Source: Egicoccus halophilus
Lineage (GTDB): Bacteria; Actinomycetota; Nitriliruptoria; Nitriliruptorales; Nitriliruptoraceae
DNA: 64,000 nucleotides
Assembly: GCF_004300825.1 (NCBI RefSeq)
Contig: NZ_CP036250.1
Coordinates: 2,722,001-2,786,000, forward strand
Direction of reading: 5' to 3'
Below the pieces are notes generated by a model. The model saw nothing but the letters and a program-made list of their open reading frames with translations. It made no database searches and was not told the origin of the DNA. Both the position numbers and the translations under genes were made by a program. Every line of letters begins with the position of its first letter. Positions within the stretch are counted from its first letter, which is position 1. Of the stretch, positions 6,862 to 21,764 are shown in pieces.

Positions 6862-7704
6862 ATGCCGCCGTTCCGACTCGTCGACGCGTTCGCCGAGCAG
6901 GCGTTCGCCGGGAACCCGGCCGGCGTCGTACTCCTCGAGCGGCCGCAGCCGGTCGCGTGGATGCAGGCGGTCGCAACCGAGGTCAACGCCTCCGAGACGG
7001 CCTTCCTCGTGCGCTCGGAACCCGACGGCGACACCTGGCGGCTGCGCTGGTTCACCCCGACCACCGAGGTCGACCTGTGCGGCCACGCGACGCTCGCCGC
7101 CGCGCACGTGCTGTGGCAGGACGCCCGCGCGCCCGCCGACGCGACGCTGCGGTTCGCCACCCGGTCCGGTGTGCTGACCGCCACCGCCGAGGACCGCGTG
7201 ATCTGGCTGGACCTGCCGGCGTGGCCGGTCCGGACGCACCCCGAACCGTCCCGTCTGGCGTCGGCACTGGGCGCGGCCGCTGGCCGCTACGTCGGTCGCA
7301 GCGCCGGCAACGTGGACCCGTCCGGCGCGTCGCAGGACGACCAGGCCCAGGCCAACGACGTGGTCGTCCTCGACCACGAACGCGCCGTGCACGAACTCGC
7401 CCCCGACCTCGCCGAGGTCGCCCGGCTCGGCTCGGGTGGGCTGATCGTGACCGCGCCGTCGGACGGCGACGACGACTTCGTCTCCCGCTACTTCGCGCCG
7501 GCGCTCGGGGTTCCCGAGGACCCGGTCACCGGCTCCGCCCACGCGACCCTGGGACCCTGGTGGGCACAGGAGCTCGGCCGCGACACGCTCACGGCCCGGC
7601 AGCTGTCCCGGCGCGGCGGACACCTGCGCGTCCGGGTCGTGGACGACCGGGTGCACGTCGGTGGTGCCGCCGTCACGGTGATCAGCGGCGCGCTCGCCGA
7701 CTGA
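6862..7704 (+). CDS. PhzF-family isomerase
   Basis: This 280-residue protein has the diaminopimelate-epimerase-like double fold of the PhzF family. Near the N-terminus are AFAGNPAGVV and NASETAFL; the glutamate there is residue 45, the position of the catalytic acid in characterised PhzF. CGHATLAAAHVL and PVTGSAHATLGPWW are the other two family signatures. The start at ATG 6862 follows a GAGG-type site and matches the family N-terminus. Substrates of PhzF homologues outside phenazine producers are mostly unknown, and no phenazine genes are nearby. It stands alone, divergent from the NAGGN operon. Confidence 0.88.
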   Translation: MPPFRLVDAFAEQAFAGNPAGVVLLERPQPVAWMQAVATEVNASETAFLVRSEPDGDTWRLRWFTPTTEVDLCGHATLAAAHVLWQDARAPADATLRFATRSGVLTATAEDRVIWLDLPAWPVRTHPEPSRLASALGAAAGRYVGRSAGNVDPSGASQDDQAQANDVVVLDHERAVHELAPDLAEVARLGSGGLIVTAPSDGDDDFVSRYFAPALGVPEDPVTGSAHATLGPWWAQELGRDTLTARQLSRRGGHLRVRVVDDRVHVGGAAVTVISGALAD

Positions 7705-7722
7705 CGGGCCCGGGCGTGGGCG

Positions 7723-8529
7723 TCAGTCCTCCGCGCTCCTCGAGCCGAGCCGGGCGGCCAGCCAGGCAGCGGCACGCTGCCACAGCGGCTCCGTCGGATC
7801 GATGAGTGCCATGTGGTCGGCCGGACCCGTCGCGAGCTCGACCTCGCCGCCGACAGCCCGCACCGCCGCCGCGTAGGTCTCGCTCTGGCTCGTCGGCACG
7901 CTCTCGTCCTGCTCACCGTGCACCAACAGGACGGGGACACCGTGACCGACCAGACCGACGGGGTCGGCCAGCGCCCACCGCTCCGGGACGACGTCCGGAG
8001 CACCGCCGAGCAGGTCGACCATCGCGCCGTTGCCCATGCCGGCGTGCTGACCCGCGACGAGGTCGGCGACCGGCGCGAGCCCCACCGTCGCCGCGGGCGT
8101 CACCCGCGGGCCGGCTCCCACCACGCCCGCCGGCAACCGCGTCCGTCCGGTCGCCCACAGCGCGAGGTGCCCGCCGGCGGAGTGACCGACGACGGCGACC
8201 CGCGTCAGGTCCACCGGCGCGTCGAGGTCCGCCAGCCGGTCGATCCCGGCCGCCACGTCGGCGAACGTCGCCGGCCAGCCGCCCCGGTCGGCCGGCGCGA
8301 CCACCTGGTCGGGCGGCGGGACCCGCCGGTACTCGAGGTTCCACGCCGCCATCCCGCGGGCGGCGACGTCGCGTGCCAGCGGCGCCGTCAGCTCCCGCAC
8401 GTACTGGTGCCGCCAGAACCCACCGTGCAGGAGCACCACGACCGGCCAACCGTTCTCGGGCACGTCCCCGTCGGGCAACGACAGCTCGGCGACCTGGTCC
8501 GGACGGTTCCCGTAGGCGTGGATAGACAC
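7723..8529 (-). CDS. Alpha/beta hydrolase (BD-FAE / kynurenine-formamidase-like)
   Basis: The 268-residue protein has the oxyanion-hole motif LLHGGFWR, the nucleophile elbow GHSAGGHLA, an acid position near HGEQDESVP and a histidine in GPADHMALID. This arrangement matches small esterases of the BD-FAE/kynurenine formamidase group. GTG at 8529 lies seven bases after AGGAG and is preferred over upstream starts. It converges on PhzF with only 18 bases between the stops. No tryptophan-degradation genes flank it, so a general carboxylesterase is equally possible. Confidence 0.82.
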   Translation of the reverse strand: MSIHAYGNRPDQVAELSLPDGDVPENGWPVVVLLHGGFWRHQYVRELTAPLARDVAARGMAAWNLEYRRVPPPDQVVAPADRGGWPATFADVAAGIDRLADLDAPVDLTRVAVVGHSAGGHLALWATGRTRLPAGVVGAGPRVTPAATVGLAPVADLVAGQHAGMGNGAMVDLLGGAPDVVPERWALADPVGLVGHGVPVLLVHGEQDESVPTSQSETYAAAVRAVGGEVELATGPADHMALIDPTEPLWQRAAAWLAARLGSRSAED

Positions 8530-8671
8530 GTGAGGTCTCCTGGCGGGGCGGACCGGGCGGCGGCCGGGACGGCCGGGTGGCAGGCGCGACGGCCGGGTGG
8601 CGGGCGGCAACCGTAGACGGCTGCCCTACGCTCGTCGTCCGCCCGTCGCCGTGCGTTCGAAGGTCCTCCTC

Positions 8672-10372
8672 GTGGACGACACCGCCCTCTCCCCCGACCG
8701 TCGTCGCCGCGACCTGACGCGGGTGCGCGAGGAGGTCTTCGATCTCGTCGTCGTCGGTGGTGGCGTGACCGGAGCCGGCATCGCGCTCGACGCCGCCACC
8801 CGTGGGTTGACCGTCGCACTGCTCGAGCAGCGCGACCTCGCCGCCGGGACCTCGAGTCGGTCGTCGAAGCTGATCCACGGCGGCCTGCGCTACCTCGAGC
8901 AGTTCAACTTCTCGCTCGTGCAGGAGGCCCTGCGCGAACGAGGGCTGCTGCTCAACGACCTGGCCCCCCACCTGGTGCGACCGGTGTCCTTCCTGTACCC
9001 GCTGCGCCACCGCGTGTGGGAACGCGCCTACGTCACCGCCGGGGTGACCCTCTACGACACCCTCGGCGGCGCCCGCCAGTTGCCGCGTCACCAGCAGCTG
9101 TCGCGCCGCGCCGCGATGCGCCTGGTCCCGTCGCTCCGGTCGGACGCGCTGACCGGCGCCATCCGTTACTGGGACGCGCAGGTCGACGACGCCCGCCACA
9201 CCATGGAGCTGGCCCGTACCGCCGCCTCGTACGGCGCCTCGGTGCTGACCTCCACCCGTGTCACCGACCTGCTGCGCGAGGGCGAGCGGGTCGTCGGGGT
9301 CGTCGCGCGTGACCAGGAGGGCGGCACGGACCTGCACGTCCGTGGACGGCAGGTCGTCAACGCGACCGGCGTCTGGGCCGACGGCATCCAGGAGATGGCC
9401 GGCCGCGGACGCATCCGTGTCCGGGCGTCGAAGGGCATCCACCTGGTGGTCCCCCGCGACCGGATCCACGCCGACACCGGCATGATCCTGCGCACCGAGA
9501 CGAGCGTGCTGTTCGTGATCCCCTGGGGACGGCACTGGTTGCTGGGCACCACCGACACGGACTGGAACCTCGACCTGGCACATCCGGCCGCGTCCGCCAG
9601 CGACATCCAGTACCTGCTCGACCGGGTCAACGGGGTGTTGCGCACCCCGCTGACCCACGCCGACGTCGAAGGCGTGCAGGCGGGCCTGCGCCCCCTGTTG
9701 TCGGGCGAGTCGGAGGCCACCAGTCAGCTCTCGCGCGAGCACGCCGTCGCACAGACGGTGGCCGGCATGATCACCATCGCCGGGGGCAAGTACACCACCT
9801 ACCGCGTGATGGCGAAGGACGCCGTGGACGCCGCCGCCCGCAGCCTCAACCAGCGGGTGCCGGCCTGTGTGACCGACCGGACCCCGTTGCTGGGGGCCCA
9901 CGGGTGGCATGCCCTGTGGAACCGCCGGGAGCGGCTCGCCGCGGAGGTCGGCCTGCACCCCAGCCGCATCGAGCACCTGCTGCGCCGCTACGGCAGCATG
10001 GTGACCCAGCTGCTGGACCTGCTCGCCGACCGGCCCGAACTCGGGGCGCGGATCGCCGGTGCCGAGGACTACCTCCAGGTCGAGGCGGTCTACGCCGCCA
10101 GCCACGAGGGCGCGCTGCACCTCGACGACCTGCTGACCCGACGCACCCGCATCTCGATCGAGACCTTCGACCGCGGCCTGGCCGCCGCCCGGGACGTCGC
10201 CCCGCTGATGGGCGAGGTGCTGGACTGGGACGACGACGACATCGCCCGGGAGATCGAGCACTACGAGGCCCGGGTCGCCGCCGAGATGGAGTCGCAGCAG
10301 ATGCCCGACGACCGCACCGCGGACGCCGCCCGCATGGGCGCCCGCGACGTGCGCGTCGGCGGCGCGGGCTGA
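8672..10372 (+). CDS. glpD: Glycerol-3-phosphate dehydrogenase, FAD-dependent
   Basis: This 566-residue flavoprotein oxidises glycerol-3-phosphate to dihydroxyacetone phosphate at the membrane and passes electrons to quinone. The FAD-binding motif VVGGGVTGAGIALDAA is near the N-terminus, followed by GTSSRSSKLIHGGLRYLE, a GlpD signature, and later GGKYTTYRVMA. The C-terminal cap domain is present. GTG at 8672 is chosen because GAAGG lies upstream; GTG 8651 is an alternative adding seven residues. Length fits the actinobacterial family. No glycerol kinase or facilitator is nearby. Confidence 0.92.
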   Translation: MDDTALSPDRRRRDLTRVREEVFDLVVVGGGVTGAGIALDAATRGLTVALLEQRDLAAGTSSRSSKLIHGGLRYLEQFNFSLVQEALRERGLLLNDLAPHLVRPVSFLYPLRHRVWERAYVTAGVTLYDTLGGARQLPRHQQLSRRAAMRLVPSLRSDALTGAIRYWDAQVDDARHTMELARTAASYGASVLTSTRVTDLLREGERVVGVVARDQEGGTDLHVRGRQVVNATGVWADGIQEMAGRGRIRVRASKGIHLVVPRDRIHADTGMILRTETSVLFVIPWGRHWLLGTTDTDWNLDLAHPAASASDIQYLLDRVNGVLRTPLTHADVEGVQAGLRPLLSGESEATSQLSREHAVAQTVAGMITIAGGKYTTYRVMAKDAVDAAARSLNQRVPACVTDRTPLLGAHGWHALWNRRERLAAEVGLHPSRIEHLLRRYGSMVTQLLDLLADRPELGARIAGAEDYLQVEAVYAASHEGALHLDDLLTRRTRISIETFDRGLAAARDVAPLMGEVLDWDDDDIAREIEHYEARVAAEMESQQMPDDRTADAARMGARDVRVGGAG

Positions 10373-10428
10373 TCGGTCTGCGGCCGGTTCTGCTGCCCGG
10401 TGTGCGGGCGCGAACCGCAGCGGCGGCA

Positions 10429-10454
10429 CCCGCCCGGCCCGCCGCATGGGCGGG
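10429..10454. terminator. Possible bidirectional terminator
   Basis: Seven-base inverted arms CCCGCCC and GGGCGGG flank a 12-base loop between the convergent glpD and acetamidase stops. There is no clear T-tract, so this is tentative. Confidence 0.3.
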
Positions 10455-10456
10455 CG

Positions 10457-11371
10457 TCAGCGAAGCACGGTGAGATCGAGATCGAGGGCGACGACCCAGT
10501 TGGGCGCGTCGACGACCTCGACGATGCGCAGGTCCGCCGCGACCGAGCACAGCGCGTAGGCGTCGACCGGCGCCAGGCCGTGGTCGGTGCCCAGCCGGTC
10601 GACCATCGCGCGGGTGGCGTCGCGCGCGGCGGCGTACAGGTCGGGGCCGACCCCGGTGGTCACCAGGCGTGGCCCGTGCGGTGACGAGGCGCCGGCCGGC
10701 AGCTCGAGCTGCGGCGCCGGGAGGTCTCCACCGCGGCGCAGCCCGATCCGCACCGTCGCGGTCGCGGAGGTCTCCACCGCCGTGCCGCAGACCTCGCCGT
10801 CGCCCTGGGCGGCGTGGGGGTCGCCGACCGACAGCAGCGCGTGCGGGACCTCGACGGGCAGCAACAAGGTGGCGCCCACCCGCACGTCGCGGCAGTCGAG
10901 GTTGCCGCCGACCCGGCGCGGCGGGATCACCGAGTGCTCCCCCGTAGCGGCCGGGGCCAGCCCGACCGTGCCGAGGAACGGACGGGCCGGCAGGCGGGCG
11001 AAGCCGCCGAAGTCGACCGTGCCGTCGGTGAGCGAGGACACGACCACGTGCGGGTCGGGGAACTCGTCGGCGAGCAGGCCGAAGCCGGGGATCAGCGCGG
11101 TCCACCCGACCGGACCCGTCTCGATCGCCAGGACCTCCACCGTCAGGGTGTCGCCGGGAGCGGCCGACGGCACGGCCACGGGCCCGGTCAGCGGGTTGGC
11201 CCGGGCGAGGTCCAGCGCGGCGATCGCGTCCGCGGTGGCGTCGGGCCCGAGCTGACCCCCGAAGCAGTCGGCCAGGACGAGCTCGACCGTGTCGCCCGGA
11301 TCGACGTGCCGACGCGGCGCACGCCTACGGTCCCAGCCGGTGTGGCCGTCACGGTGGTGCAGGCGGTGCAT
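10457..11371 (-). CDS. Acetamidase/formamidase family protein
   Basis: This 304-residue protein matches the FmdA/AmdA family of zinc-dependent amidases that hydrolyse short-chain amides such as formamide and acetamide. Visible signatures include DCFGGQLG near the N-terminus, the central GGNLDCRDVRVG with HALLSVGDPHAAQGDGEV, a metal and active-site region, and TSATATVRI. The ATG at 11371 follows AGGAG by five bases. Its upstream region now abuts an IS110 element, which may have separated it from original promoter sequence. Substrate range is not readable from sequence. Confidence 0.88.
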   Translation of the reverse strand: MHRLHHRDGHTGWDRRRAPRRHVDPGDTVELVLADCFGGQLGPDATADAIAALDLARANPLTGPVAVPSAAPGDTLTVEVLAIETGPVGWTALIPGFGLLADEFPDPHVVVSSLTDGTVDFGGFARLPARPFLGTVGLAPAATGEHSVIPPRRVGGNLDCRDVRVGATLLLPVEVPHALLSVGDPHAAQGDGEVCGTAVETSATATVRIGLRRGGDLPAPQLELPAGASSPHGPRLVTTGVGPDLYAAARDATRAMVDRLGTDHGLAPVDAYALCSVAADLRIVEVVDAPNWVVALDLDLTVLR

Positions 11372-11410
11372 GTGCGCTCCTGAGGGTGACGCCGACGAGC
11401 GTCACGACGC

Positions 11411-11623
11411 TAATGGGTGTCGACCGTCCGGTGTTACTGCAGGATGGTCGAGAGCCGCCGGTCGGTCAGCACTGTATGACGCAGGACCTCGAGTTCTACG
11501 GCTAGATCGTGCGCCGGCTGGTCGGTGAGGTCGACCTTGATGGCTGGTGGGATGACGTGCTTCGAGCACTGAACCATTAGGGCGCTGCTGGTCGCCTCGG
11601 CTCACACGACGATCGGGAGGACG
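11411..11623 (+). ncRNA. Candidate IS110 bridge RNA region
   Basis: The non-coding left end upstream of the transposase is about 213 bases long. In IS110-group elements the left end encodes the bridge RNA, which pairs with donor and target DNA. The position and length fit. I could not fold it or identify the guide loops by eye, so this rests on family knowledge. Confidence 0.35.
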
Positions 11624-12841
11624 ATGGATGCGTTGTTCGTAGGACACGATTGGGCAGAGGATCATCACGACGTTCACCTGCAGGACCGCGAGGGTCGGCA
11701 GCTCGCGCAGGTGCGACTAGCTGACGGGGTCGAAGGGATCGCCAGGTTCCATGCCCTGATCGCCGAGCACGCCCAGGACCCGGCCAGCGTGGTGATCGCG
11801 ACAGAGACCGACCGGGGCCTGTTCGTCGCCGCGCTGGTGGCTGCCGGCTACCGGGTGTTCGCGGTGAACCCGGTCTCGACCGCCGCCTACCGGACACGGC
11901 ACTCGACCTCGGGTGCGAAGTCCGACCCCGGGGACGCCAAGGTGCTAGCCGACCTGGCCCGCACCGATGTGCGCAACCACCGGCCCGTGGCCGGCGACAG
12001 CGAGCTCGCCGTCGCGGTCAAGGTGCTCGCACGGGCCCATCAGGGGCTGGTGTGGACCCGTCAGCGGCAGGCCAACCAGCTGCGCTCGACGTTGCGGGAG
12101 TTCTACCCCGCTGCACTCGAAGCGTTCGACGATCTGGCGTCGGGTGACGCGCTGGCGCTCTTGGCGGTTGCGTCGACGCCTGAGCAGGGCCGGCGGCTGT
12201 CACGATCCAAGATCGCCGCGGCACTCCGGCGTGGGGGCCGGCAACGCAACATCGACCGGCGCACCATCGAGATCCAGACCGCCCTGCGCGCCGAGCATCT
12301 CCACGCCCCCGCCATCGTCGCCGACACGATGGGCGAGGTGGTGTCCTCGCTGGTCGCGGTCATCGCCACGATCCAGACCCAGATCAGCCAGCTCGAACAG
12401 CAGTTGAACGAACGTTTTGAGGCGCACCCGGACGCCAAGATCATCCGTTCCCTGCCAGGACTGGGGATGATCCTCGGCGCCCGGGTGCTCGCAGAGTTCG
12501 GCGATGACCCGAACCGCTACGACACCGCGAAGTCTCGCAAGAACTACGCCGGCACGTCACCGATCACCAAAGCCTCCGGCAAACACCACGTCGTGCTCGC
12601 CCGCTACGCCCGCAACAAACGCCTGGCTGACGCCTGCTACCAGTGGGCCTTCTCCGCCATCACCGCCAGCCCCGGCGCACGCGCCTTCTACGACCAACGC
12701 CGCGCCGCGGGCGACACCCACCACCGCGCCCTGCGCGCCCTCGGCAACCGGCTCGTGGGCATCCTCCACGGCTGCCTACGCCACCACACCATCTACGACG
12801 AACACATCGCCTGGGCACACCGGCTCACCCTGGCTGCTTGA
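11624..12841 (+). CDS. IS110-family transposase (DEDD recombinase)
   Basis: This 405-residue protein has an N-terminal RuvC-like DEDD domain: D9 in VGHDWAED, E61 in ATETD, and D101/D104 in SDPGDAKVLADL. The C-terminal transposase_20 region contains SLPGLGMILGARVLAE and NYAGTSPIT, with the serine expected for this family, and a coiled coil lies between the two (IQTQISQLEQQLNE). Length is normal for IS110. GGGAGGACG precedes the ATG. It appears intact and is inserted between the divergent acetamidase and SURF1 genes. Confidence 0.93.
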   Translation: MDALFVGHDWAEDHHDVHLQDREGRQLAQVRLADGVEGIARFHALIAEHAQDPASVVIATETDRGLFVAALVAAGYRVFAVNPVSTAAYRTRHSTSGAKSDPGDAKVLADLARTDVRNHRPVAGDSELAVAVKVLARAHQGLVWTRQRQANQLRSTLREFYPAALEAFDDLASGDALALLAVASTPEQGRRLSRSKIAAALRRGGRQRNIDRRTIEIQTALRAEHLHAPAIVADTMGEVVSSLVAVIATIQTQISQLEQQLNERFEAHPDAKIIRSLPGLGMILGARVLAEFGDDPNRYDTAKSRKNYAGTSPITKASGKHHVVLARYARNKRLADACYQWAFSAITASPGARAFYDQRRAAGDTHHRALRALGNRLVGILHGCLRHHTIYDEHIAWAHRLTLAA

Positions 12842-12897
12842 CACCTACGACCGTGGGATAGCTAGCCGGCGCCGGCACGGGGGTACCCTGCACACCG

Positions 12898-13704
12898 ATG
12901 CTCACCGATCTCCTGCGCCCTCGCGCCCTTCTCAGCCACGCGCTGGTCCTGTTCGTCGCGGCGACCTGCGTCGTGCTCGGGCAATGGCAGTTCGACCGCC
13001 TCGCCCAGGTGCGCGAGAACAACGCCCTGCTGGAGCAACGATTGCAGAACGACCCGGTCGCGTTGGGCGAGCTCGTGGGAGCCCCGACGGTCGACGAGGC
13101 GGAACTGGAGTACCGGCCGGTCACGGCGCGCGGCACGTTCCGGCCGGCGCAGGAGCTGCTCCAGCGCGGTGCACAGCATCAGAACCAGCAGGGGTTCTCG
13201 ATCCTCACCCCGTTCGACCTGACCGACGGCGGCGTGGTGCTCGTCCGACGGGGGTTCGTGCCCGCCGCGTTGGACACCCCACCGGTCGCCGAGGCCGCAC
13301 CGCCCACGGGCGAGGTCGAGCTGCACGGCATCCTCGAGCGCCCGGTGCCCAATCCGCCGCGCGGGCCCCAGGATCCGGCCGAGGGCCACATGGAGCGGGT
13401 GTTCCACGCCGACACGGCGCGCCTCGACCAGCAGGTGGACGGCACGCTCTACCCCATGGTCCTGCGCCTGCAGACCGACGAGCCGGTCGCCTACGACGCG
13501 ATGCCCGTCCCCCCCGCCCCACCGGTGCTCGACGAGGCGAACCACTTCTCGTACGCCATGCAGTGGCACTCGTTCGCGGTGCTGGCCGTGGTGACCTACG
13601 TCGCCTGGCTGGTCACGCAACGCCGGCAGCGGCAGGGTGGACGTCCGGACGCCGAGGCGCCGACGTCGCCGGGAACGACCACGACCGCCGGCCATCGCGG
13701 CTGA
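12898..13704 (+). CDS. SURF1 family cytochrome oxidase assembly protein
   Basis: The 268-residue protein has two membrane helices, one at residues 12-30 and one near residue 225, with a large external loop, the SURF1 layout. Conserved elements are GQWQFDRLAQ after the first helix and HFSYAMQWHSFA at the second. SURF1 helps insert haem a into cytochrome c oxidase subunit I. No oxidase genes are in the window. The IS110 right end lies about 35 bases upstream, so its promoter may be altered. Confidence 0.85.
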   Translation: MLTDLLRPRALLSHALVLFVAATCVVLGQWQFDRLAQVRENNALLEQRLQNDPVALGELVGAPTVDEAELEYRPVTARGTFRPAQELLQRGAQHQNQQGFSILTPFDLTDGGVVLVRRGFVPAALDTPPVAEAAPPTGEVELHGILERPVPNPPRGPQDPAEGHMERVFHADTARLDQQVDGTLYPMVLRLQTDEPVAYDAMPVPPAPPVLDEANHFSYAMQWHSFAVLAVVTYVAWLVTQRRQRQGGRPDAEAPTSPGTTTTAGHRG

Positions 13705-14001
13705 GCGGCCGGCCACCAGGACTCGGGTCGAGGTGACGCGGACGGCCCTACGGTCCGTGGCCGCCCCCCGCGCGGCCACCGATACCGCAGTCCCCGACCG
13801 TCCGCGTCTCCTCCACCTCCGCCGCTCACCCGAGATCGGGCGAGCGGAGCCGTGCCGAGCGCAGGCGCATGGTCGCACGGTCGGTGAGCGGACGGAACCG
13901 TGCCCCTACGACACTTGCGAGGTGGTGCTAGCACCACCTCACCCCTGGTCGTCCGACCCGCCGGAGACCGCCTAGTCTCTGGATCGACCAGGAGGCGAGG
14001 T
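13705..14001. other. Intergenic region upstream of a NarL-type regulator
   Basis: These 297 bases hold no convincing gene. The one striking element is a perfect palindrome at 13919-13940. A TAGTCT that could be a -10 box lies near 13973, but I see no matching -35. Confidence 0.5.
13919..13940. promoter_or_regulatory. Perfect 22-bp palindrome, operator candidate
   Basis: Each 11-base half reads GAGGTGGTGCT and its reverse complement, joined with no spacer. It sits 61 bases upstream of the GTG of the NarL-type regulator. The symmetry is that of a dimeric regulator site, perhaps autoregulatory. Confidence 0.6.
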
Positions 14002-14685
14002 GTGCAGGCCGGTGCGACACGGACCACGCTCCTCATCGCGGAGGACGACTACCTGGTGCGGGAGGGGGCACGATCGGTGCTCGCGGCACACCCGCGTCTG
14101 CAGGTGCTCGGTGCCGCGTCGGACGCCGAAGGTGTCCTCGAGCTGCTCGAGGAGTGCGACCCCGACGTCGTGATGCTCGACATCCGGATGCCTCCCACGT
14201 TCACCACCGAGGGCATCGACCTCGCCCACCGCATCCGTGGCCTGCGCCGGGGCACCGGCATCGTGGTGCTCTCCCAGCACGCCGACCCCGAGTACGCGCT
14301 CGAGCTGCTCAAGGACGGCTCCGACGGGGTGGCCTACCTGCTCAAGGAACGGCTCGGCGACGCCGACCGCCTGGTGCAGGCGATCGAGGAGGTCCGCGCC
14401 GGGGGCTCGATCCTGGACCCCCGCATCGTCGAGGGTCTGCTCGACGCGCAGCGGCGACGCACGGCCTCGAAACTGGCCGGTCTGACGCCACGGGAGCTCG
14501 AGGTCCTGGCGCTCATGGCGTCAGGTCGGGGGAACGTCGCGATCGGCCGGGAGCTGTCCATCACCGACCGGTCGGTCGAGAAGCACACCAATTCCATCTT
14601 CCGCAAGCTCGGCCTGTCCGAGGAGCTCGAGCTCAACCGCCGGGTCGCCGCCGTGCTGTTCTACCTCCAGCGCTCGACCGACTGA
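14002..14685 (+). CDS. NarL/FixJ-family response regulator
   Basis: This 227-residue protein has an N-terminal receiver (LLIAEDDYLVREG, phospho-acceptor aspartate in VVMLDIRMP, lysine in AYLLKERLG) and a C-terminal LuxR-type helix-turn-helix (LTPRELEVLALMASG, SVEKHTNSIFRKLGL). GTG 14002 follows AGGAGG and is preferred over the upstream GTG at 13900. It converges on a histidine kinase gene whose open frame runs 165 bases into it on the opposite strand. The kinase has the HisKA_3-type domain that pairs with NarL regulators, so the two probably form one system. The palindrome upstream may be its own operator. Confidence 0.9.
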   Translation: MQAGATRTTLLIAEDDYLVREGARSVLAAHPRLQVLGAASDAEGVLELLEECDPDVVMLDIRMPPTFTTEGIDLAHRIRGLRRGTGIVVLSQHADPEYALELLKDGSDGVAYLLKERLGDADRLVQAIEEVRAGGSILDPRIVEGLLDAQRRRTASKLAGLTPRELEVLALMASGRGNVAIGRELSITDRSVEKHTNSIFRKLGLSEELELNRRVAAVLFYLQRSTD

Positions 14686-16386
14686 CCGGCGCTGCGGCAG
14701 CAGCGCCGTCATCGACGTGCCCTCACCGGGGTTGGAGAGCAGCTGCAGCGAGCCGCCCAACGCGTTCACCCGGTCGCGCAGATGGACGACGCCCCCCGAG
14801 TGGACCGTGCGATCGGGGCGGAAGCCGACCCCGTCGTCGACCACGCTGACCCGCAGCATCTCGCCCTCGTGACGGACCTCGATCGCGATCCGGGTGGCCC
14901 GGGCGTGCTTGAGGGCATTGGCCACCGCCTCCGAGATCAGGAAGTAGGCGTTGGTCTCGACCGCCTCGTCGCTGCGGGGCAGTGGATCGGGATCGAGCAC
15001 CACGTCCACCGGCGTGGCCGACCGGCTCGCGAGGCTGTGCAGGGCGCCACCGAGCCCGCGGTCCCGCAGGATCGACGGGAACAACGCCTGTCCGGTGGCG
15101 CGCAGTTCGTCGAGGATCCCGTCGATCGAGCTGGCCATCTGGTCGGTCACCGCGTCGACCTCCCCCGGGTCGTCGCGCAACCGGTGCCGAGCGGCGCCCA
15201 CCTGCATGCGCAGCACCACCAACTGCTGTTGGATGCCGTCGTGGAGGTCCTGGGCCACCCGGCGCCGCTCCTCGTCCTGGACGCCGACGATCCGACGGGC
15301 CGCCTCCTGCAGCGCCTCCGCCTGCTGGCGGATGACCAGCAGCTGCGCCCGCAGGGCCCGGCGCATGCGCTCGAGCGCCCCGGCCAGCGCACCGATCTCG
15401 TCGCGCCGTTCCACCGTGAAGCTGCGGTCGAGGTCACCCCCGGCGATCGCCGTCGCCGTGTCCGTCAGGGACACGATCGGTCGGATCATGACGCGTGCCA
15501 ACGCGAACGCCAGCGAGCCCCCCAACGCGATGAGCAGCGTGACCATCAGCACCCGCGTGCGGGTCAGGCGGGCGTCGAGCGCGGCCAGCGGGTCCGCGGT
15601 CACCAGGCCGATCGCGCCCGGACGTCCCCAGCTGCGCTCGGCCCCGATGGCGACGTAGCGCACGAGTCGGCGGTCGTCGACCTGTTGGGTCTCGCGCTGC
15701 AGCGACGGGTCACCCAGCGCCGGGTCACCGACCGCGTGCCCGTCCGAGGAGGCGACCACCGTGCCGTCCACCACGATCTCGACCCGGTCCACGCCGGTGA
15801 GGCGGCCGACCTCCCGGGCACGGGCGTCGGAGAGCTCGAAACCGACGACGACCAGCAACGGCTCCCCGAGCTGCTGTACGGGCGCGACGTACACCAGCCC
15901 CCAGGAGCCGTTCTCGAGCGGCACGATCCGCTGGCCGGCCAGCTCGCTGAAGGAGACGCCGTCGAGCTCGTCGGGGTCGAGGGGCGCGACGGTCGTGCGT
16001 GCCGGCAACCGCTGCACCAGTTCGCCCCCACGGACGTCCACGACCCCGCCCAGCTCCAGGTTCGGTTCGCTGGTCCCCACCGTCGAGAGCAGGTCGGCCA
16101 GGCCCCGCTGGTAGGCCGCTGGGGTCGCCGAGTCGCTCAGCAGCTGCTGGGCGAGCGTGTTGAGCAGCAGGTTGGTCCGCAGCCCGTCGCGTTGCACCTC
16201 GAAGTCCAGGGCATTGCCCTGCTCGACCGTGAGCAGCCGGGCCTGCTCCCGCAGCGCCTGCCGCGTCAGCCGCGTCTCGAGCACCAGCGTCACCCCGCTC
16301 GCGAGGATCAGCACGACCAGGAAGGCCATCAGGATCTTGGGCAGCAGCGAGGCCTCGCGGTCGAACACCGCCCGCAGGGTGCTCAC
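14521..16386 (-). CDS. Membrane histidine kinase (HisKA_3 type)
   Basis: The 621-residue kinase has a membrane helix at about residues 15-35, an extracellular sensor of about 250 residues, a second helix, a HAMP linker (RPIVSLTDTATAIAGGDLDR), the dimerisation motif RRVAQDLHDGIQQQL with the phosphorylated histidine, and an ATPase domain (EAVANALKHA, VVDDGVGF). Its GTG start overlaps the stop of the solute-binding lipoprotein gene by four bases, so the two are translationally coupled. About 55 C-terminal residues after ALLPQRRS are encoded antisense to the regulator and look like read-through rather than a domain. It should phosphorylate the neighbouring NarL regulator. Confidence 0.88.
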   Translation of the reverse strand: MSTLRAVFDREASLLPKILMAFLVVLILASGVTLVLETRLTRQALREQARLLTVEQGNALDFEVQRDGLRTNLLLNTLAQQLLSDSATPAAYQRGLADLLSTVGTSEPNLELGGVVDVRGGELVQRLPARTTVAPLDPDELDGVSFSELAGQRIVPLENGSWGLVYVAPVQQLGEPLLVVVGFELSDARAREVGRLTGVDRVEIVVDGTVVASSDGHAVGDPALGDPSLQRETQQVDDRRLVRYVAIGAERSWGRPGAIGLVTADPLAALDARLTRTRVLMVTLLIALGGSLAFALARVMIRPIVSLTDTATAIAGGDLDRSFTVERRDEIGALAGALERMRRALRAQLLVIRQQAEALQEAARRIVGVQDEERRRVAQDLHDGIQQQLVVLRMQVGAARHRLRDDPGEVDAVTDQMASSIDGILDELRATGQALFPSILRDRGLGGALHSLASRSATPVDVVLDPDPLPRSDEAVETNAYFLISEAVANALKHARATRIAIEVRHEGEMLRVSVVDDGVGFRPDRTVHSGGVVHLRDRVNALGGSLQLLSNPGEGTSMTALLPQRRSVGRALEVEQHGGDPAVELELLGQAELAEDGIGVLLDRPVGDGQLPADRDVPPT

Positions 16387-17648
16387 CCGGCCGGCCGGGT
16401 CGCCAGCCACGCCTCGGCGTGGTCCTGCAGGCCCGCCATCGCCTCGGCCGCCTCCTGGCGTCCGGTGATCACCGCGTTGAGCGCCTCGGAGAACGCCTGC
16501 GCGATGTCCGGATAGGCGATCAGCGGCATCACCCGGGCGTCGGACAGCCGGGGGACGAAGTCCGACAGCAGCGGGTCGTCGGTGAACACCGGATCACGGA
16601 ACACCCGCACCCGGGCCGGCAGCCGCCCCTCCTCGGTGGCCAGGCGCACGGCCACCTCGTCGTCGGTCAGCCGCAGCGCCAGCGCGAACGCGAGCTCCGG
16701 CTGCCCCGCCCCCTGGGGCAGGAACAGGCTCGAGCCACCGAGCACCGTCACCGGCCGCTCCGGGTCCTGCTGGGGCAGGGGCAGCACCCGCAGGTCCAGG
16801 TCCCGCGTGGCGTTGCGGGCGACGACACGCAGGTCCCACGACCCGGTGGCATGCACGGCGGTGTCGCCGTTGACGAACGCCTGGACCGCATCGGCGGCGA
16901 AGTCGGGTCCGTACGGCGGCGGCGTGAACTCCGAGGTGGCGAGCTCGACCAGGTACTCCAGCGCCGTGACGGTGGCCGGGTCGTCGAAGGTGAACGTGGG
17001 CCGACCCGTGCGGGAGTCGACCTCGACGACCTCCCCACCCAGCGCGCGGATCCAACCGTAGGCCTGCCAGCTGCTCGTGGAGACCGGCATCATCCACGAC
17101 GCCGCACCCGACGCCGTCACCGCCTCCGCGGCGGCACGGAATCCCTGTGGGGTGGCGAGGTCCTCGGGCTTGAGCCGGGCGGCCTCGAGCATGTGCTCGT
17201 CGGCGAGCAGGACCAGGGCGTTGGTGTCCAGCGGCACGCCGTAGCGTGCACCGAGCCACGTCACGTCCTCGACCGCACCGGGAAGGAAGTCGCCGGCTCG
17301 GAGCCCCGCCTCCTCCCATCGCTCGTCCAGCGGCGTGGCCAGCCCGGCCGCCGCAGCGGCGAACGCGTGCCAGTGCGCCAGGTCGTAGGGCTGCTCGAGG
17401 CGCTGCGCGGAGGCGACCAGGTCCGGGATCTGCGAGAACGGCACCGCCTGCACCTGGACCCGCACCCGGTCGTGTTCACGCTCGAACTCGTCGATCACCT
17501 CGCGCACCGCCGGTGCGCTGGCCCAGTCGTCGGCCATGATGACCCGCACCAGGGTCGGCTCCGACGGGACGGCGCTCGCGGCACAGCCGGCCGTGACCGA
17601 TGCTGCCAGCGCCAGGGCGGACAGCAGGAGGCTCGAGAGGATCCGCAC
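16383..17648 (-). CDS. Extracellular solute-binding lipoprotein (family 1)
   Basis: This 421-residue protein starts with a hydrophobic signal and lipobox VTAGC, then a type-1 sugar-binding-protein fold (residues around YDLAHWHAFAAA, GVPLDTNALVL, FVNGDTAVHATGSWD). Normally such proteins feed an ABC transporter, but no permease or ATPase is adjacent. It is instead coupled by a GTGA overlap to a histidine kinase. Context suggests a periplasmic-type ligand receptor for the kinase. GTG 17648 is selected because the signal peptide begins there; the upstream frame is low-complexity shadow. Ligand unknown, perhaps a sugar. Confidence 0.85.
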   Translation of the reverse strand: MRILSSLLLSALALAASVTAGCAASAVPSEPTLVRVIMADDWASAPAVREVIDEFEREHDRVRVQVQAVPFSQIPDLVASAQRLEQPYDLAHWHAFAAAAAGLATPLDERWEEAGLRAGDFLPGAVEDVTWLGARYGVPLDTNALVLLADEHMLEAARLKPEDLATPQGFRAAAEAVTASGAASWMMPVSTSSWQAYGWIRALGGEVVEVDSRTGRPTFTFDDPATVTALEYLVELATSEFTPPPYGPDFAADAVQAFVNGDTAVHATGSWDLRVVARNATRDLDLRVLPLPQQDPERPVTVLGGSSLFLPQGAGQPELAFALALRLTDDEVAVRLATEEGRLPARVRVFRDPVFTDDPLLSDFVPRLSDARVMPLIAYPDIAQAFSEALNAVITGRQEAAEAMAGLQDHAEAWLATRPAG

Positions 17649-17759: not shown

Positions 17760-18635
17760 ATGGCCATCTTCCGCACCCAGCCCTTCCTCCCGACCGCCTT
17801 CCACGACGACGCGACCCTCGACCTCGACGGGCAGTCCGCCCTCGCCGCGACCACGGCGGCCGCCGGCGTCGACGGGGTCGCCGTGCTCGGGACGGGGAGC
17901 GGGGAGCCCGGTGCGCTGCGCCTCGAGGAGGTCGCCGACGTGGTCGCGGCCACCCGACGCGGCGCGGCGGGACTGCCGGTCGCGGTCGGACTGGCGTCGA
18001 CCGGCCCGGGGGCACTGCCCATGGCCCGTGCGGCCGCCTCGGCCGGCGCCGACCTGCTCGTCGCGGCCGTCCCGGCGGGCGCGGACCGGGGCGAGGCGCT
18101 GACCGCCGTGGCGGAGCTCGGCGTGCCGCTGTGGTTGCACCACGTCCCCGCGGTCACCGGCGCCCGACTCGACGCACCGGCCCTGCTCGCCCTCGCCGAG
18201 GACCTCGGGGCGGGTGCGGTGGTCGTGGAGGCCGCACCGCCCGGTGACCTCGTGGCCGGGATCGCCGGCGAGGGCCGTCCCGCGACGCTCGGCGGACTGG
18301 CCGGTCTGTTCCTGCCCGAGGAGGTCGAGGCCGGCGCACTCGGCACCACCGCCGGCTCGGCCGTCCCGGAGCGTCTGGGTGCGCTCGCCTCCCGCTACCG
18401 CGCGGAGGACCCCGCGGCCGCCTGGGACGCCTACCTGGAGCTGCTGCCATGGCTGCGGCTGGAGGTCGGCAGCCCCGGCCTGCGGGTGCGCAAGGAAGCC
18501 TGGCGACAGCGTGGCGTGCTCGGCTCCGCCCGGGTACGCGAGGGGACGCCGCTGGGCACCGCCACCAAGATCGCGGTGACGCGACGCCTGCGACAGGTGG
18601 GTGTCGAGGTGCGTGCGCCCTACCCCGGCGCGTGA
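17760..18635 (+). CDS. DapA-like (DHDPS/NAL superfamily) protein without catalytic residues
   Basis: The 291-residue protein matches the TIM-barrel pattern of dihydrodipicolinate synthase (GVDGVAVLGTGSGEP, LPVAVGLAS). The usual GTTGE motif is GTGSGE. The catalytic Tyr position reads LHHVP (residues 126-130) and the Schiff-base Lys position reads VVVEA (154-158), so both key residues appear to be lost. It is therefore probably not an aldolase or DHDPS. It is divergent from the solute-binding protein and 25 bases upstream of a GNAT gene. Assignment to the superfamily is fair, function unknown. Confidence 0.7.
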   Translation: MAIFRTQPFLPTAFHDDATLDLDGQSALAATTAAAGVDGVAVLGTGSGEPGALRLEEVADVVAATRRGAAGLPVAVGLASTGPGALPMARAAASAGADLLVAAVPAGADRGEALTAVAELGVPLWLHHVPAVTGARLDAPALLALAEDLGAGAVVVEAAPPGDLVAGIAGEGRPATLGGLAGLFLPEEVEAGALGTTAGSAVPERLGALASRYRAEDPAAAWDAYLELLPWLRLEVGSPGLRVRKEAWRQRGVLGSARVREGTPLGTATKIAVTRRLRQVGVEVRAPYPGA

Positions 18636-18660
18636 GCCCACGCCGCCCACAGGAGGCACC

Positions 18661-19485
18661 GTGACCCCCGAGTCCGACCCGGTCGATCCCGACGCGGTCC
18701 TACCGAGCCCGCCCGGGACCGGCGCCTCCGACGCCGAAGCGGTCGAGCCGCCGCTCGACCACGACGCGGTCGCTCCGGACGCCTGGCACCGCCGGGTCGA
18801 GTTGCGCGACGGCACCGCGGTACTCATCCGCCAGATCCGCCCCGAGGACCGCGACCGGCTGGCGGCCGGCTTCGCGGAGCTCTCCCCCGCATCGCGCTAC
18901 CTGCGCTTCCACAGCGCCGTCGACGAGCTGTCCGAGGAGCAGCTGACCTACCTGACCGAGGTCGACCACGTCGACCACGAGGCCCTCGTCGCCGTCGACC
19001 TCGACCGCCCGGAACGGGCCGGGGTCGGCGTCGCCCGCTACGTGCGCGAGCCCTACGAACGTGAGACCGCCGAAGCCGCCATCACGGTCGCCGACGCCTA
19101 CCACGGCCAGGGGGCCGGCACCCTGCTGTTGGGAGCACTGGCCGCCCGCGCCCGCGCCAATGGCGTGCGGGTGTTCCGCAACTACGTGCTGGCGGGCAAC
19201 CACGCCATGCTGGAGGTGTTCGACCACCTCGGCGCCCGACGCGAACGCGAGAACGAGCAACTGTGGCGCGTGGACCTGCCGCTGCCCGAGGACCTCGACG
19301 AACTCGCCGACTCGGCTCCCGGTCGGGCCTTCGCCGCGGCGGCGCGCGGACATCGACACCTCGTGAGCCTGTTCCCGCCGATCTGGAGCCGCATCAAGGG
19401 CCGTCGACGCGACCGGGAGGACGATCGCCGTGAGCTCGAGGCCGTGCGCGACGACGTGGACCCGTGGCTCGATCCCGACGGCTAA
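18661..19485 (+). CDS. GNAT-family N-acetyltransferase
   Basis: The 274-residue protein has an acidic, proline-rich N-terminal tail of about 45 residues and then a GNAT domain (VLIRQIRPEDRDRL, acetyl-CoA loop YHGQGAGTLLLGALAARA, FRNYVLAGNHAMLEVF). This form resembles the stand-alone acetyltransferases related to Pat-type lysine acetyltransferases, but no cAMP-binding domain is seen. GTG 18661 follows AGGAGG at five bases. It starts 25 bases after the DapA-like gene and is probably cotranscribed with it. Confidence 0.82.
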   Translation: MTPESDPVDPDAVLPSPPGTGASDAEAVEPPLDHDAVAPDAWHRRVELRDGTAVLIRQIRPEDRDRLAAGFAELSPASRYLRFHSAVDELSEEQLTYLTEVDHVDHEALVAVDLDRPERAGVGVARYVREPYERETAEAAITVADAYHGQGAGTLLLGALAARARANGVRVFRNYVLAGNHAMLEVFDHLGARRERENEQLWRVDLPLPEDLDELADSAPGRAFAAAARGHRHLVSLFPPIWSRIKGRRRDREDDRRELEAVRDDVDPWLDPDG

Positions 19486-19494
19486 CGTCCGCGC

Positions 19495-20133
19495 GTGCCC
19501 GCCCTCGTCCTCCGTCCCGAGCTGCGCCGCCGGCTGCCACGCCTGCTGCTCGGCCTCGTGCTGTGCGGGCTCGGCATCGCCGTCATGGTGGCGGCCGACC
19601 TCGGGCTCGGCCCCTGGGACGTGCTCCACCAGGGGCTGTCCCGCCTGAGCGGCATCCCGATCGGGACCGTCGGGATCCTCGTGGGCCTGCTGGTGCTCGT
19701 CGCCTGGCTGCCGTTGCGGGAGCGTCCGGGCCTGGGCACCGTGCTCAACGTGCTGGTCATCGGCGTGGTGATCGACGTCACCCTGCTGGTGCTGACGACC
19801 CCCGCCGCACTGTGGCAGCGGTGGGTGCTGATGCTCGCCGGACCGGTCCTGTTCGGGATCGGCTCGGGCTACTACATCGGCGCCGGTCTCGGCTCGGGGC
19901 CACGCGACGGCATCATGACCGGCCTGGCACGACGCGGCCTGCCGGTCGGGCTGGTGCGGGCCGGCCTGGAGCTGAGCGTGCTCGCCCTGGGCTGGCTGCT
20001 CGGCGGCACCGTCGGCGCCGGCACACTGGTCTTCGCGCTCGGCATCGGTCCGCTGGTGCACCTCGCCCTGCCGCGGCTCGCCCTGCCCGACGTCGATCCG
20101 GCGCCACCAGAGGGCACCCGCTCCGCGCGCTGA
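19495..20133 (+). CDS. YczE/YyaS-like integral membrane protein
   Basis: The 212-residue protein has about five to six membrane helices and the conserved YczE pattern: GLGPWDVLHQGLS in the first loop and GLGSGPRDGIMTGL in the second. It follows the GNAT gene by nine bases and is likely in the same operon. The family has no firm function. Its stop codon lies at the first unit of a 28-bp tandem repeat. Confidence 0.8.
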   Translation: MPALVLRPELRRRLPRLLLGLVLCGLGIAVMVAADLGLGPWDVLHQGLSRLSGIPIGTVGILVGLLVLVAWLPLRERPGLGTVLNVLVIGVVIDVTLLVLTTPAALWQRWVLMLAGPVLFGIGSGYYIGAGLGSGPRDGIMTGLARRGLPVGLVRAGLELSVLALGWLLGGTVGAGTLVFALGIGPLVHLALPRLALPDVDPAPPEGTRSAR

Positions 20134-20137
20134 CGCG

Positions 20138-20277
20138 CAGAATTCGGGCCGGCCGCGCTGGCGCTCAGAATCCGAGCCGGCCGCGCTGACGCTCAGAATC
20201 CGAGCCGGCCGCGCTGACGCTCAGAATCCGAGCCGGCCGCGCTGACGCTCAGAATCCGAGCCGGCCGCGCTGACGCT
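20138..20277. repeat. 28-bp tandem repeat, five copies
   Basis: A CAGAAT core recurs at 20138, 20166, 20194, 20222 and 20250, exactly 28 bases apart; the first unit is slightly diverged (CAGAATTCGGG) and the rest are identical. Each unit contains GCCGGC. The array fills the space between two convergent genes, and GCTGACGCTCAG at its edges supplies the stop codons. Confidence 0.95.
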
Positions 20278-21647
20278 CAGCGGCAGAGCCCGGCGATCGT
20301 CGGGTACGGGTTGACCCACGCCCCGTCGATCCGACGTCCCAGGTGGAGGTGCGGTGGCGTGGTACGGGCGTTGCCCGTGTTGCCCACGGTCCCGATCTGC
20401 TCGCCCGCCGCCACCGTGGTGCCCACCGTCAGGTCCTCGGCGATCGTGTCGAGGTGGGCGTTGTACCACTCGCTGCCGTCGGCGGTCCGGTACGTGACGG
20501 TGACGCCGCCCAGGCTCGTCGGCGAGTCGGCCGGGTTCACCCGCACGACCGTGCCCTCGGCGATGGCCACCACGGCCACGCCACGGTCGGCGAACATGTC
20601 GGTGCCCTCGTGCGTCCGGCCACCCGAGCGGGGGTAGCCCCAGTCGTTGCTGAAGTCGCGGTTGGCCACCGCACCCTCCACCGGACAGAAGCCACCGGCG
20701 ACCGACGGGCCGCCGAGGCTCCGGCCGAGGACGGCCGCCGCCATCTCCCGCTCCCGACGCTCGGCGTCCTCGGCCAGGCGTCGCTCGACGAGTTCGACCT
20801 GCAGCTCGGCGCGGCGCACATCGACCCGCGCCAGCAGGTCGGTGGTCTGCTCGGCGTCGGCCTGGAGCCCGGCGAGGACCTCACGCTGCCGCAGCTCCGC
20901 CTGCTCGATCTCGGCGGTGAGCGCGGCCTCCTGCGCCTGCAGGTCCTCGACCCACGCGAGGGTGTCGGCCGCCTCGGTCGCGGCCTGCGTCGCCCGGCTG
21001 CGTGCCCGGGCCGCGTCACGTTCCTGGGTCGTACGACGCTCGCGCAGGGCGAACACCTGCTGGACGGTGGACTCCTGGGTGTCCACGACCACCTTGAGCT
21101 GCTTGAGGCCGACGGCGAAGCTGTTGGGATCCTCGGCGCGACGCAGCACCTCGATGACCATGGCGCCGCGCGTGGCACCCGCCGTGCCGTACTTGAACGT
21201 CTCGACGAGCTGCTGGGTCAACAGCTGCTCCTCGTCCAACAGTCGCTGGCGGGTGCGCTCGAGCGCACGTTCACGACGCCGGTGCTCGGCCTCCGCGGTG
21301 CGCTGCGCCCGCTCGGCCTCCTCGCGTGCCACCTCGGCCAGCGCGACCTGTCCCTCGGCGGCGCGGAGCCGCCCCCGTGCGTCGTCGAGCTGGAGTGCGA
21401 GCTGCGCGAGCTCCTCCTCGGCGGCCAGCAGGTCCTCGTGGACCCGGCCGAGTTCCGAGCTCAGGTCCCCCGCCTCCTCGTCGGCCTCACCCAGCTCGCG
21501 CGCGACCTCGTCACTGGTGCGCGAGTCGCCGCTGCGGCCGTCGTCACGCGGTTGCGCCGCAGCCGTCGTGGGCACCACGACGAGTACCGCCGCGACCGCG
21601 GCGACGGCACGCAGACGCCGCCGGGACGGATGACGACGGAGGGACAC
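20277..21647 (-). CDS. M23-family peptidase with N-terminal coiled coil (EnvC/NlpD-like)
   Basis: This 456-residue protein has a signal segment ending near TTAAAQ, a long coiled coil rich in Ala, Glu and Arg (about residues 45-310), then a LytM/M23 domain with zinc motifs HEGTDMFAD and HLHLG. Such proteins act outside the membrane on peptidoglycan or activate amidases during division. GTG 21647 has AAGGA upstream. Both zinc motifs are intact, so it could be an active endopeptidase, unlike the degenerate EnvC. Confidence 0.88.
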   Translation of the reverse strand: MSLRRHPSRRRLRAVAAVAAVLVVVPTTAAAQPRDDGRSGDSRTSDEVARELGEADEEAGDLSSELGRVHEDLLAAEEELAQLALQLDDARGRLRAAEGQVALAEVAREEAERAQRTAEAEHRRRERALERTRQRLLDEEQLLTQQLVETFKYGTAGATRGAMVIEVLRRAEDPNSFAVGLKQLKVVVDTQESTVQQVFALRERRTTQERDAARARSRATQAATEAADTLAWVEDLQAQEAALTAEIEQAELRQREVLAGLQADAEQTTDLLARVDVRRAELQVELVERRLAEDAERREREMAAAVLGRSLGGPSVAGGFCPVEGAVANRDFSNDWGYPRSGGRTHEGTDMFADRGVAVVAIAEGTVVRVNPADSPTSLGGVTVTYRTADGSEWYNAHLDTIAEDLTVGTTVAAGEQIGTVGNTGNARTTPPHLHLGRRIDGAWVNPYPTIAGLCR

Positions 21648-21764
21648 GGGCGTCCTTCGCTTGCTCGAGTCGACGCGTGCGGCGGTCACGGCACGGTGGG
21701 CGACGACCGTGGACCGGCACGGTACCGCCCGCCCCCCGACACGTCGGCCATTGGCGTGCGCCAC

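Follow-up and report, generated by a model that had tools for sequence, protein, structure and literature searches.

Solute-binding proteins that serve a sensor kinase rather than an importer have been described in Firmicutes and Vibrio. In the CuaDSR system of Ruminiclostridium cellulolyticum, a second solute-binding protein, apart from that of the importer, is encoded beside a kinase and a regulator, and this protein, CuaD, is described as binding the kinase and improving the efficiency of cellobiose sensing (PMC10384115). The discussion of the same paper attributes separate sensing and uptake binding proteins to two further Firmicutes, Geobacillus stearothermophilus and Clostridium beijerinckii (PMC10384115). 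In the LuxP-LuxQ system of Vibrio, the kinase has tandem PAS-like domains and is presented with its signal by a periplasmic binding protein, and HptSA (HptS-HptA) of Staphylococcus aureus is listed with glucose-6-phosphate and a double PAS-like kinase sensor (PMC8534201). Here we describe a gene trio from Egicoccus halophilus that encodes a solute-binding lipoprotein (SBP), a sensor kinase (HK) and a NarL/FixJ-type regulator (RR). It lies at positions 14002 to 17648 of the window, the whole 64,000-nt stretch analyzed (GCF_004300825.1, NZ_CP036250.1, positions 2,722,001 to 2,786,000, forward strand), in a single-contig genome of 3.98 Mb. The carbohydrate three-component systems of the two further Firmicutes carry the gene names AraPST and XylFII-LytS, HptA is a binding protein, and LuxP belongs to another binding-protein fold class.

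We consider it likely, with a probability of about 0.77, that the trio is a dedicated SBP-dependent three-component signaling system. The lipoprotein, anchored outside the membrane, would bind a small external solute (oligosaccharide-like, judging by the fold), and would dock on the PAS-like external domain of the HK. Ligand binding would shift the state of the HisKA_3 kinase, the HK would pass phosphate to Asp60 of the NarL-type RR, and the RR would probably control its own promoter via a palindrome at 13920 to 13939.

As far as CuaDSR is described in PMC10384115, both systems have a dedicated SBP gene beside a kinase and a regulator; however, CuaDSR is one three-gene operon beside the importer operon that it controls, whereas in the window the RR gene is convergent with the HK gene and overlaps it, and there is no adjacent importer. 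LuxPQ senses AI-2, while the window kinase is of the HisKA_3 type with a separate NarL-type regulator; its sensor, PAS-like in the model, may be a double PAS-like one, as listed for HptS (PMC8534201). A mechanism in which an SBP serves a kinase is thus already published for other bacteria and is not new, and the trio would add an actinobacterial case to these precedents. As far as our searches reach, the new elements are the actinobacterial family, the convergent overlapping regulator and the conserved element upstream of it. With the terms used, none of the titles listed from the open-licence literature concerned this trio or a kinase whose gene stops within that of its regulator.

Identity, coupling and conservation of the three genes

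The first-pass annotation had proposed that a sugar-type binding lipoprotein, a kinase with a large external sensor and a NarL regulator form a three-component sensor. Pfam domains and the sequence itself confirmed that all three genes are real and located where it had placed them. The SBP gene (16383 to 17648, minus strand; GTG start at 17648, TGA stop at 16385 to 16383) encodes 421 residues, and Pfam, an AlphaFold model and its orthologues identify the product as a maltose-binding-protein-like lipoprotein. It matches SBP_bac_8 (1.2e-24) and SBP_bac_1 (3.1e-19), and an alignment of 19 orthologues spans 37 to 69% identity. The lipobox cysteine Cys22 (codon at 17583 to 17585, minus strand) is unchanged in 20/20 aligned SBPs, and the protein is probably lipid anchored through it. 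The top solved matches of the AlphaFold model (pLDDT 93.0) were sugar-binding and glycerophosphodiester-binding proteins with Z scores of about 40: the sugar binder of an ABC importer (3uor; Z 40.3, 382 aligned residues, rmsd 2.9) ranked just ahead of the glycerophosphodiester binder UgpB (4mfi; Z 39.9). By sequence, the top single-protein match was GacH, and the top profile match was the Listeria protein 5ysb, whose structure title names a beta-1,2-glucooligosaccharide binder.

The HK gene (14521 to 16386, minus strand; 621 residues) has its GTG start at 16386, and this start overlaps the SBP stop by the four nucleotides GTGA (16383 to 16386, minus strand). The coupling noted in the first-pass annotation was read directly from the sequence; among relatives, 13 of 20 have a start codon placed so as to give this 4-nt overlap. 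The kinase consists of a transmembrane segment, an external domain, a second transmembrane segment, HAMP, HisKA_3 and HATPase_c domains and a tail of about 55 residues; the last three domains each scored above the Pfam cut-off. Its external sensor is indeed large, with about 240 residues (approximately residues 38 to 278; 15553 to 16275, minus strand), and its length by alignment was 225 to 253 residues in 21/21 SBP-linked kinases. The HK model (mean pLDDT 77.9, pTM 0.46) is weaker than the SBP model, and pLDDT in the tail (residues 567 to 621) is mostly below 50. Residues 50 to 264 of the model match residues 353 to 593 of 5ere (Z 14.4, rmsd 3.2, 199 aligned), which we take to be a Cache domain. 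The Pfam scan gave no Cache match in the HK sensor, and LuxQ was absent among the structure matches listed, which excludes nothing. Overall, the modeled fold is consistent with a PAS-like or Cache sensor.

The RR gene (14002 to 14685, plus strand; GTG start at 14002) encodes 227 residues with Response_reg and GerE domains, both above the cut-off and likewise in keeping with a HisKA_3-NarL/FixJ pair. That it converges on the other two genes was correct but understated, as the 3' ends of HK and RR overlap by 165 bp. This overlap, the palindrome and the conserved neighbors in relatives had gone unnoticed in the first-pass annotation.

The trio is conserved as a unit. SBP orthologues were found in 22 of the 101 genomes compared, our own included, at E values of 2.3e-66 or better, with the next matches at 1.6e-21 or weaker. 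Full-length HK orthologues (9.2e-81 or better) occurred in exactly the same 22 genomes; the next HK matches (4.2e-54 and 3.8e-49) came from two genomes without SBP, G005 and G017. RR orthologues (1.2e-79 or better) were present in 21 of the 22, the next matches (1.4e-78 and 8.8e-78) again being those of G005 and G017; in the remaining genome, G001, the contig (L033) ends inside HK. HK adjoins SBP in 22/22 genomes, which is beyond chance, and RR is convergent with HK in 21 of them, the contig cut inside HK being the 22nd. We refetched 20 of the 21 other loci, leaving out the short contig of G032, where orthologue searches placed SBP, HK and RR in the same order. The order SBP, HK, convergent RR was intact in 19 of these 20, L033 being cut off.

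A second scan, over named genomes, yielded 19 loci. Of these, 13 were labeled Nitriliruptoraceae and one, 70% identical, Actinomycetota; the other five (L115 to L119) were more distant, with 37 to 43% identity, and were labeled Acidimicrobiia (three), Actinomycetes (one) and Actinomycetota (one). SBP and HK were adjacent in all five distant loci, and a convergent RR followed in four, L115 ending after HK. The SBP gene is thus consistently linked to a kinase and a regulator.

One genus of the same family, represented by G005 and G017 (loci L154 and L155), retains RR (60% identical) and a convergent HK, and orthologue search found no SBP in either genome. The stretch between the membrane segments of these kinases, as located by a hydropathy scan, is 137 (L154) and 130 (L155) residues long, compared with 226 to 261 residues in 20 SBP-linked HKs; L048 was left unscored, as a single segment was found from the start used. 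The sensors of the SBP-less kinases are therefore about 100 residues shorter, as would be expected if the SBP docks on the part that is missing. A molybdoenzyme gene ends 78 bp before the HK start in L154, and in L155 the gap from this gene to the likely HK start is 164 bp. With part of the sensor gone, the genus provides a natural control and makes the proposed docking surface predictable.

Search for a transporter partner and alternative readings

Sugar-type (CUT1) importers combine an SBP of the maltose-binding-protein type with permeases. The SBP described here is of this type, and the permeases are missing: none of the 44 BPD_transp_1 matches in the genome lies inside the window. The absence of a nearby permease therefore holds for this family, and the nearest member, about 21 kb from SBP, has its own SBP. 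The genome holds 15 distinct SBP_bac_1/SBP_bac_8 genes. For all 14 others, one of which matched below the Pfam cut-off, at least one permease match lies no more than a few kilobases away, while the SBP of the trio has none. Sorted by position, 27 of the 44 permeases stand beside one of these 14 genes, and the 17 left over were typed by their best NCBIfam models as amino acid/ectoine, methionine, betaine/choline and oligopeptide/nickel permeases. These types are approximate, as the best models mostly scored under their curated cut-offs and permeases 1161353, 2288922 and 2289590 were typed by the matched stretch only. None of the 17 scored best as sugar-type, and an orphan permease was rejected as a partner of the SBP. 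A permease elsewhere in the genome that depends on this lipoprotein would speak against a sensory role; the BPD_transp_1 search with NCBIfam typing found no unpaired sugar-type permease in the genome.

Indirect evidence thus supports well the view that the SBP would serve the kinase rather than a transporter, because SBP and full-length HK co-occur and adjoin, no unpaired sugar-type permease was found and the sensor is shorter where the SBP is missing. The interpretation of the first-pass annotation, a former transporter subunit now presenting a ligand to the kinase, is accordingly supported in part: service to the kinase stands on this indirect evidence, while a past in transport is suggested by the maltose-binding-protein fold.

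The SBP might instead still work in transport, supplying a distant sugar importer in trans, with its link to HK reflecting co-regulated uptake and sensing. The clean maltose-binding-protein fold would fit, binding proteins can in principle be common to several importers, and the trio of G042 and G055 has an importer immediately upstream. However, each sugar-type permease found in the genome has an SBP gene beside it, in the loci examined it is the kinase rather than a transporter that SBP accompanies, and the importer of G042 and G055 is PotABC-like and has its own SBP gene, for which 9 of 11 genomes searched gave no match (E 1e-10). We therefore regard transport in trans as improbable. It is unlikely, too, that HK senses directly via its PAS-like domain, with the lipoprotein as a modulator dispensable for signaling. 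Several double PAS-like sensors are described as binding ligands themselves (PMC8534201), the two-component part of CuaDSR alone is reported to have still perceived cellobiose (PMC10384115), and the genus of L154 and L155 has a kinase-regulator pair without an SBP. Against direct sensing, SBP co-occurs with full-length sensors in 22/22 genomes, and the sensor is much shorter in the kinases that lack an SBP.

Several points weigh against a dedicated signaling trio. HK and RR persist without any SBP in the genus of L154 and L155, and this SBP-less pair represents one evolutionary event in one genus. An importer without BPD_transp_1 permeases would escape the permease search. No sugar gene was recognized beside the trio in the window, going by provisional names of the neighbors there. 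The SBP tree is mirrored most closely by the sensor, which favors the trio, but weakly: controlled for HK and RR distances, SBP and sensor distances had a partial correlation of 0.52 over 20 sequences (kinase 0.43, RR 0.17) and 0.55 over 16 sequences of one family (kinase 0.30, RR 0.34), a small margin that is not relied on. Finally, G042 and G055 carry the PotABC-like importer directly upstream of the trio.

Among the mapped loci, only these two have this importer, and its SBP was detected in 2 of the 11 genomes searched. As this SBP was not found in G048 and eight other genomes, the importer was rejected as a general source or partner of the trio's SBP; it may be a local target in G042 and G055. 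Distant relatives of its PotC-like permease occur in 8 of 9 other genomes, the one in G000 (5.5e-33) at a permease with its own SBP. In L049, the PotABC-like importer genes, their own SBP and a DUF5995/cyclic-nucleotide-binding protein occupy 7434 to 14880 before the trio, and L050 has an equivalent arrangement.

Antisense overlap of the kinase and regulator genes

The 3' ends of HK and RR overlap in 20/20 measured pairs (19 loci and the window). The overlap is 165 bp in the window (14521 to 14685) and in 10 others, 219 bp in four, 195 bp in one, 150 bp in three and 71 bp in one. The HK stop codon TGA lies opposite the TCA codon of RR Ser174 (14521 to 14523), as read in this sequence and in relatives. 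In 19 of 20 pairs HK is read codon-to-codon antisense to RR and terminates opposite a TCA serine within the last 72 RR codons; the frame differs in L047, which has the 71-bp overlap. In L154 and L155 (overlap of 219 bp) HK is likewise antisense and ends opposite an RR TCA. In three of the distant loci, L117, L118 and L119, HK and RR are set apart by about 130 bp to 1.2 kb (other predicted genes intervene in L118), and the two ends meet in L116. The long overlap thus appears to be a feature of the window's class, which locus labels suggest is Nitriliruptoria.

TCA is otherwise rare, accounting for 16 of 425 serines in SBP and, once the last 75 HK codons are set aside, 10 of 544 in HK. The Ser174 column holds serine in 17 of 20 sequences and TCA in 12 of those 17; in the remaining sequences except L047, a different TCA serves as the HK stop, 72 or 49 codons short of the RR end. 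When one sequence of an ordered pair had TCA at Ser174 and the other had serine, the other also used TCA in 132 of 192 pairs, compared with 2/104 in SBP, 14/70 in HK and 28/132 in the remaining RR serine columns, among them those of the alternative stops. Because the stop is kept as this otherwise rare codon, termination of HK at a TCA within RR looks selected. Furthermore, likeness at fourfold degenerate third positions was higher within the overlap (0.588, 31 sites) than beyond it (0.499, 98 sites; permutation 0.004), a modest difference, since the 19 sequences used (L047 excluded) are related.

The overlap is more likely than not a passive by-product of high G+C content, in which HK lost its own stop and reads through an open antisense frame with an idle tail. 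The codon-to-codon antisense frame of a high-G+C gene is often open, HK uses exactly this frame, and most of its tail is modeled below a pLDDT of 50. The retained TCA and the greater likeness of fourfold sites point the other way, although neither demonstrates a function of the tail. More speculatively, and doubtful in our view, the DNA itself could tie HK and RR to each other, with the final 49 to 72 HK residues encoded antisense to most of the RR DNA-binding domain and selection holding one RR TCA as the HK stop. Overlapping transcripts might then set the HK:RR ratio, and in relatives RR might control membrane-lipid modification genes (FAD oxidase, DUF1365, cyclopropane synthase) in response to the SBP solute. 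A stop codon kept inside the partner gene would be an unusual case of one DNA stretch constraining two functionally paired genes.

The upstream palindrome and conserved neighbors

A perfect palindrome, AGGTGGTGCTAGCACCACCT, lies upstream of RR (13920 to 13939) and is a putative operator; at up to three mismatches, no match appeared in 100 shuffled versions of the window. Its consensus was present at up to three mismatches in 14 of 20 RR upstream regions and in 0 of 1,014 control windows of the same loci, and at up to five in 16 of 20 and 3 of 1,014, a contrast that is partly circular, as the consensus was built from the upstream regions scored. The four regions without it even at five mismatches were L037, L040, L044 and L047. 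In L040 and L044 the core is kept and the arms differ yet still pair, a pattern compatible with an operator and with a hairpin alike. On the simplest reading, RR would regulate its own gene through the palindrome.

At up to three mismatches, 10 genomes contained 1 to 4 sites each, compared with 3 to 10 for the reversed pattern. The RR site was among them in 9 of 10 (the exception being G019), and a regulon defined by the motif was dropped, as the extra sites were no better than chance by this control. A further site common to G000 and G002 apparently lies within coding sequence, judging by its conserved flanks, and single extra sites in G003, G019, G034, G042 and G048 were inspected by sequence only. 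A similar palindrome that follows a gene we take to be ccr-like in G000, G002 and G003 was not counted as an operator, as its long G+C-rich arms fit a terminator. This G+C-rich element, with a GGTGGTG/CACCACC-like core, lies 3' of the gene in congeneric genomes (L161 4025, L162 4023, L163 approximately 4081) and could be either a terminator or a second binding site. A weaker copy with three mismatches occurs in G003 (L163 11485), close to the start of another regulator-like gene.

Neighbor counts over the 20 loci are lower bounds, as some loci are cut off before the positions concerned. A molybdopterin oxidoreductase gene (Oxidored_molyb) lies directly before SBP in at least 11 of 20; in a twelfth, L042, the distance is about 2 kb. 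A gene for an FAD-dependent oxidase (Pfam Amino_oxidase) is divergent from RR in at least 10 (L034 to L038, L041 to L043, L045 and L046). In L034 and L046, DUF1365 and cyclopropane-synthase genes come after the oxidase gene; in at least two loci this divergent position is taken by a cyclopropane-synthase-family gene alone. The molybdoenzyme and lipid-modification genes are possible RR targets in these relatives. In the window's own genus the molybdoenzyme gene is located elsewhere and not by the trio, and a search run without a positive control genome gave no match for the FAD oxidase in 3/3 genomes.

Elsewhere in the window, a transposase-like gene (11624 to 12841, plus strand), presumably IS110-like, lies between an acetamidase-like gene and SURF1; in L031 and L032, from the same genus, the latter two are about 100 bp apart with no transposase-like gene. 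The neighbors on the SBP side (17760 to 21764) recur among the 20 loci, some of them cut short: an M23 peptidase gene in 10, together with genes that we assume to be GNAT-like (12), YczE-like (nine) and DHDPS-like (five).

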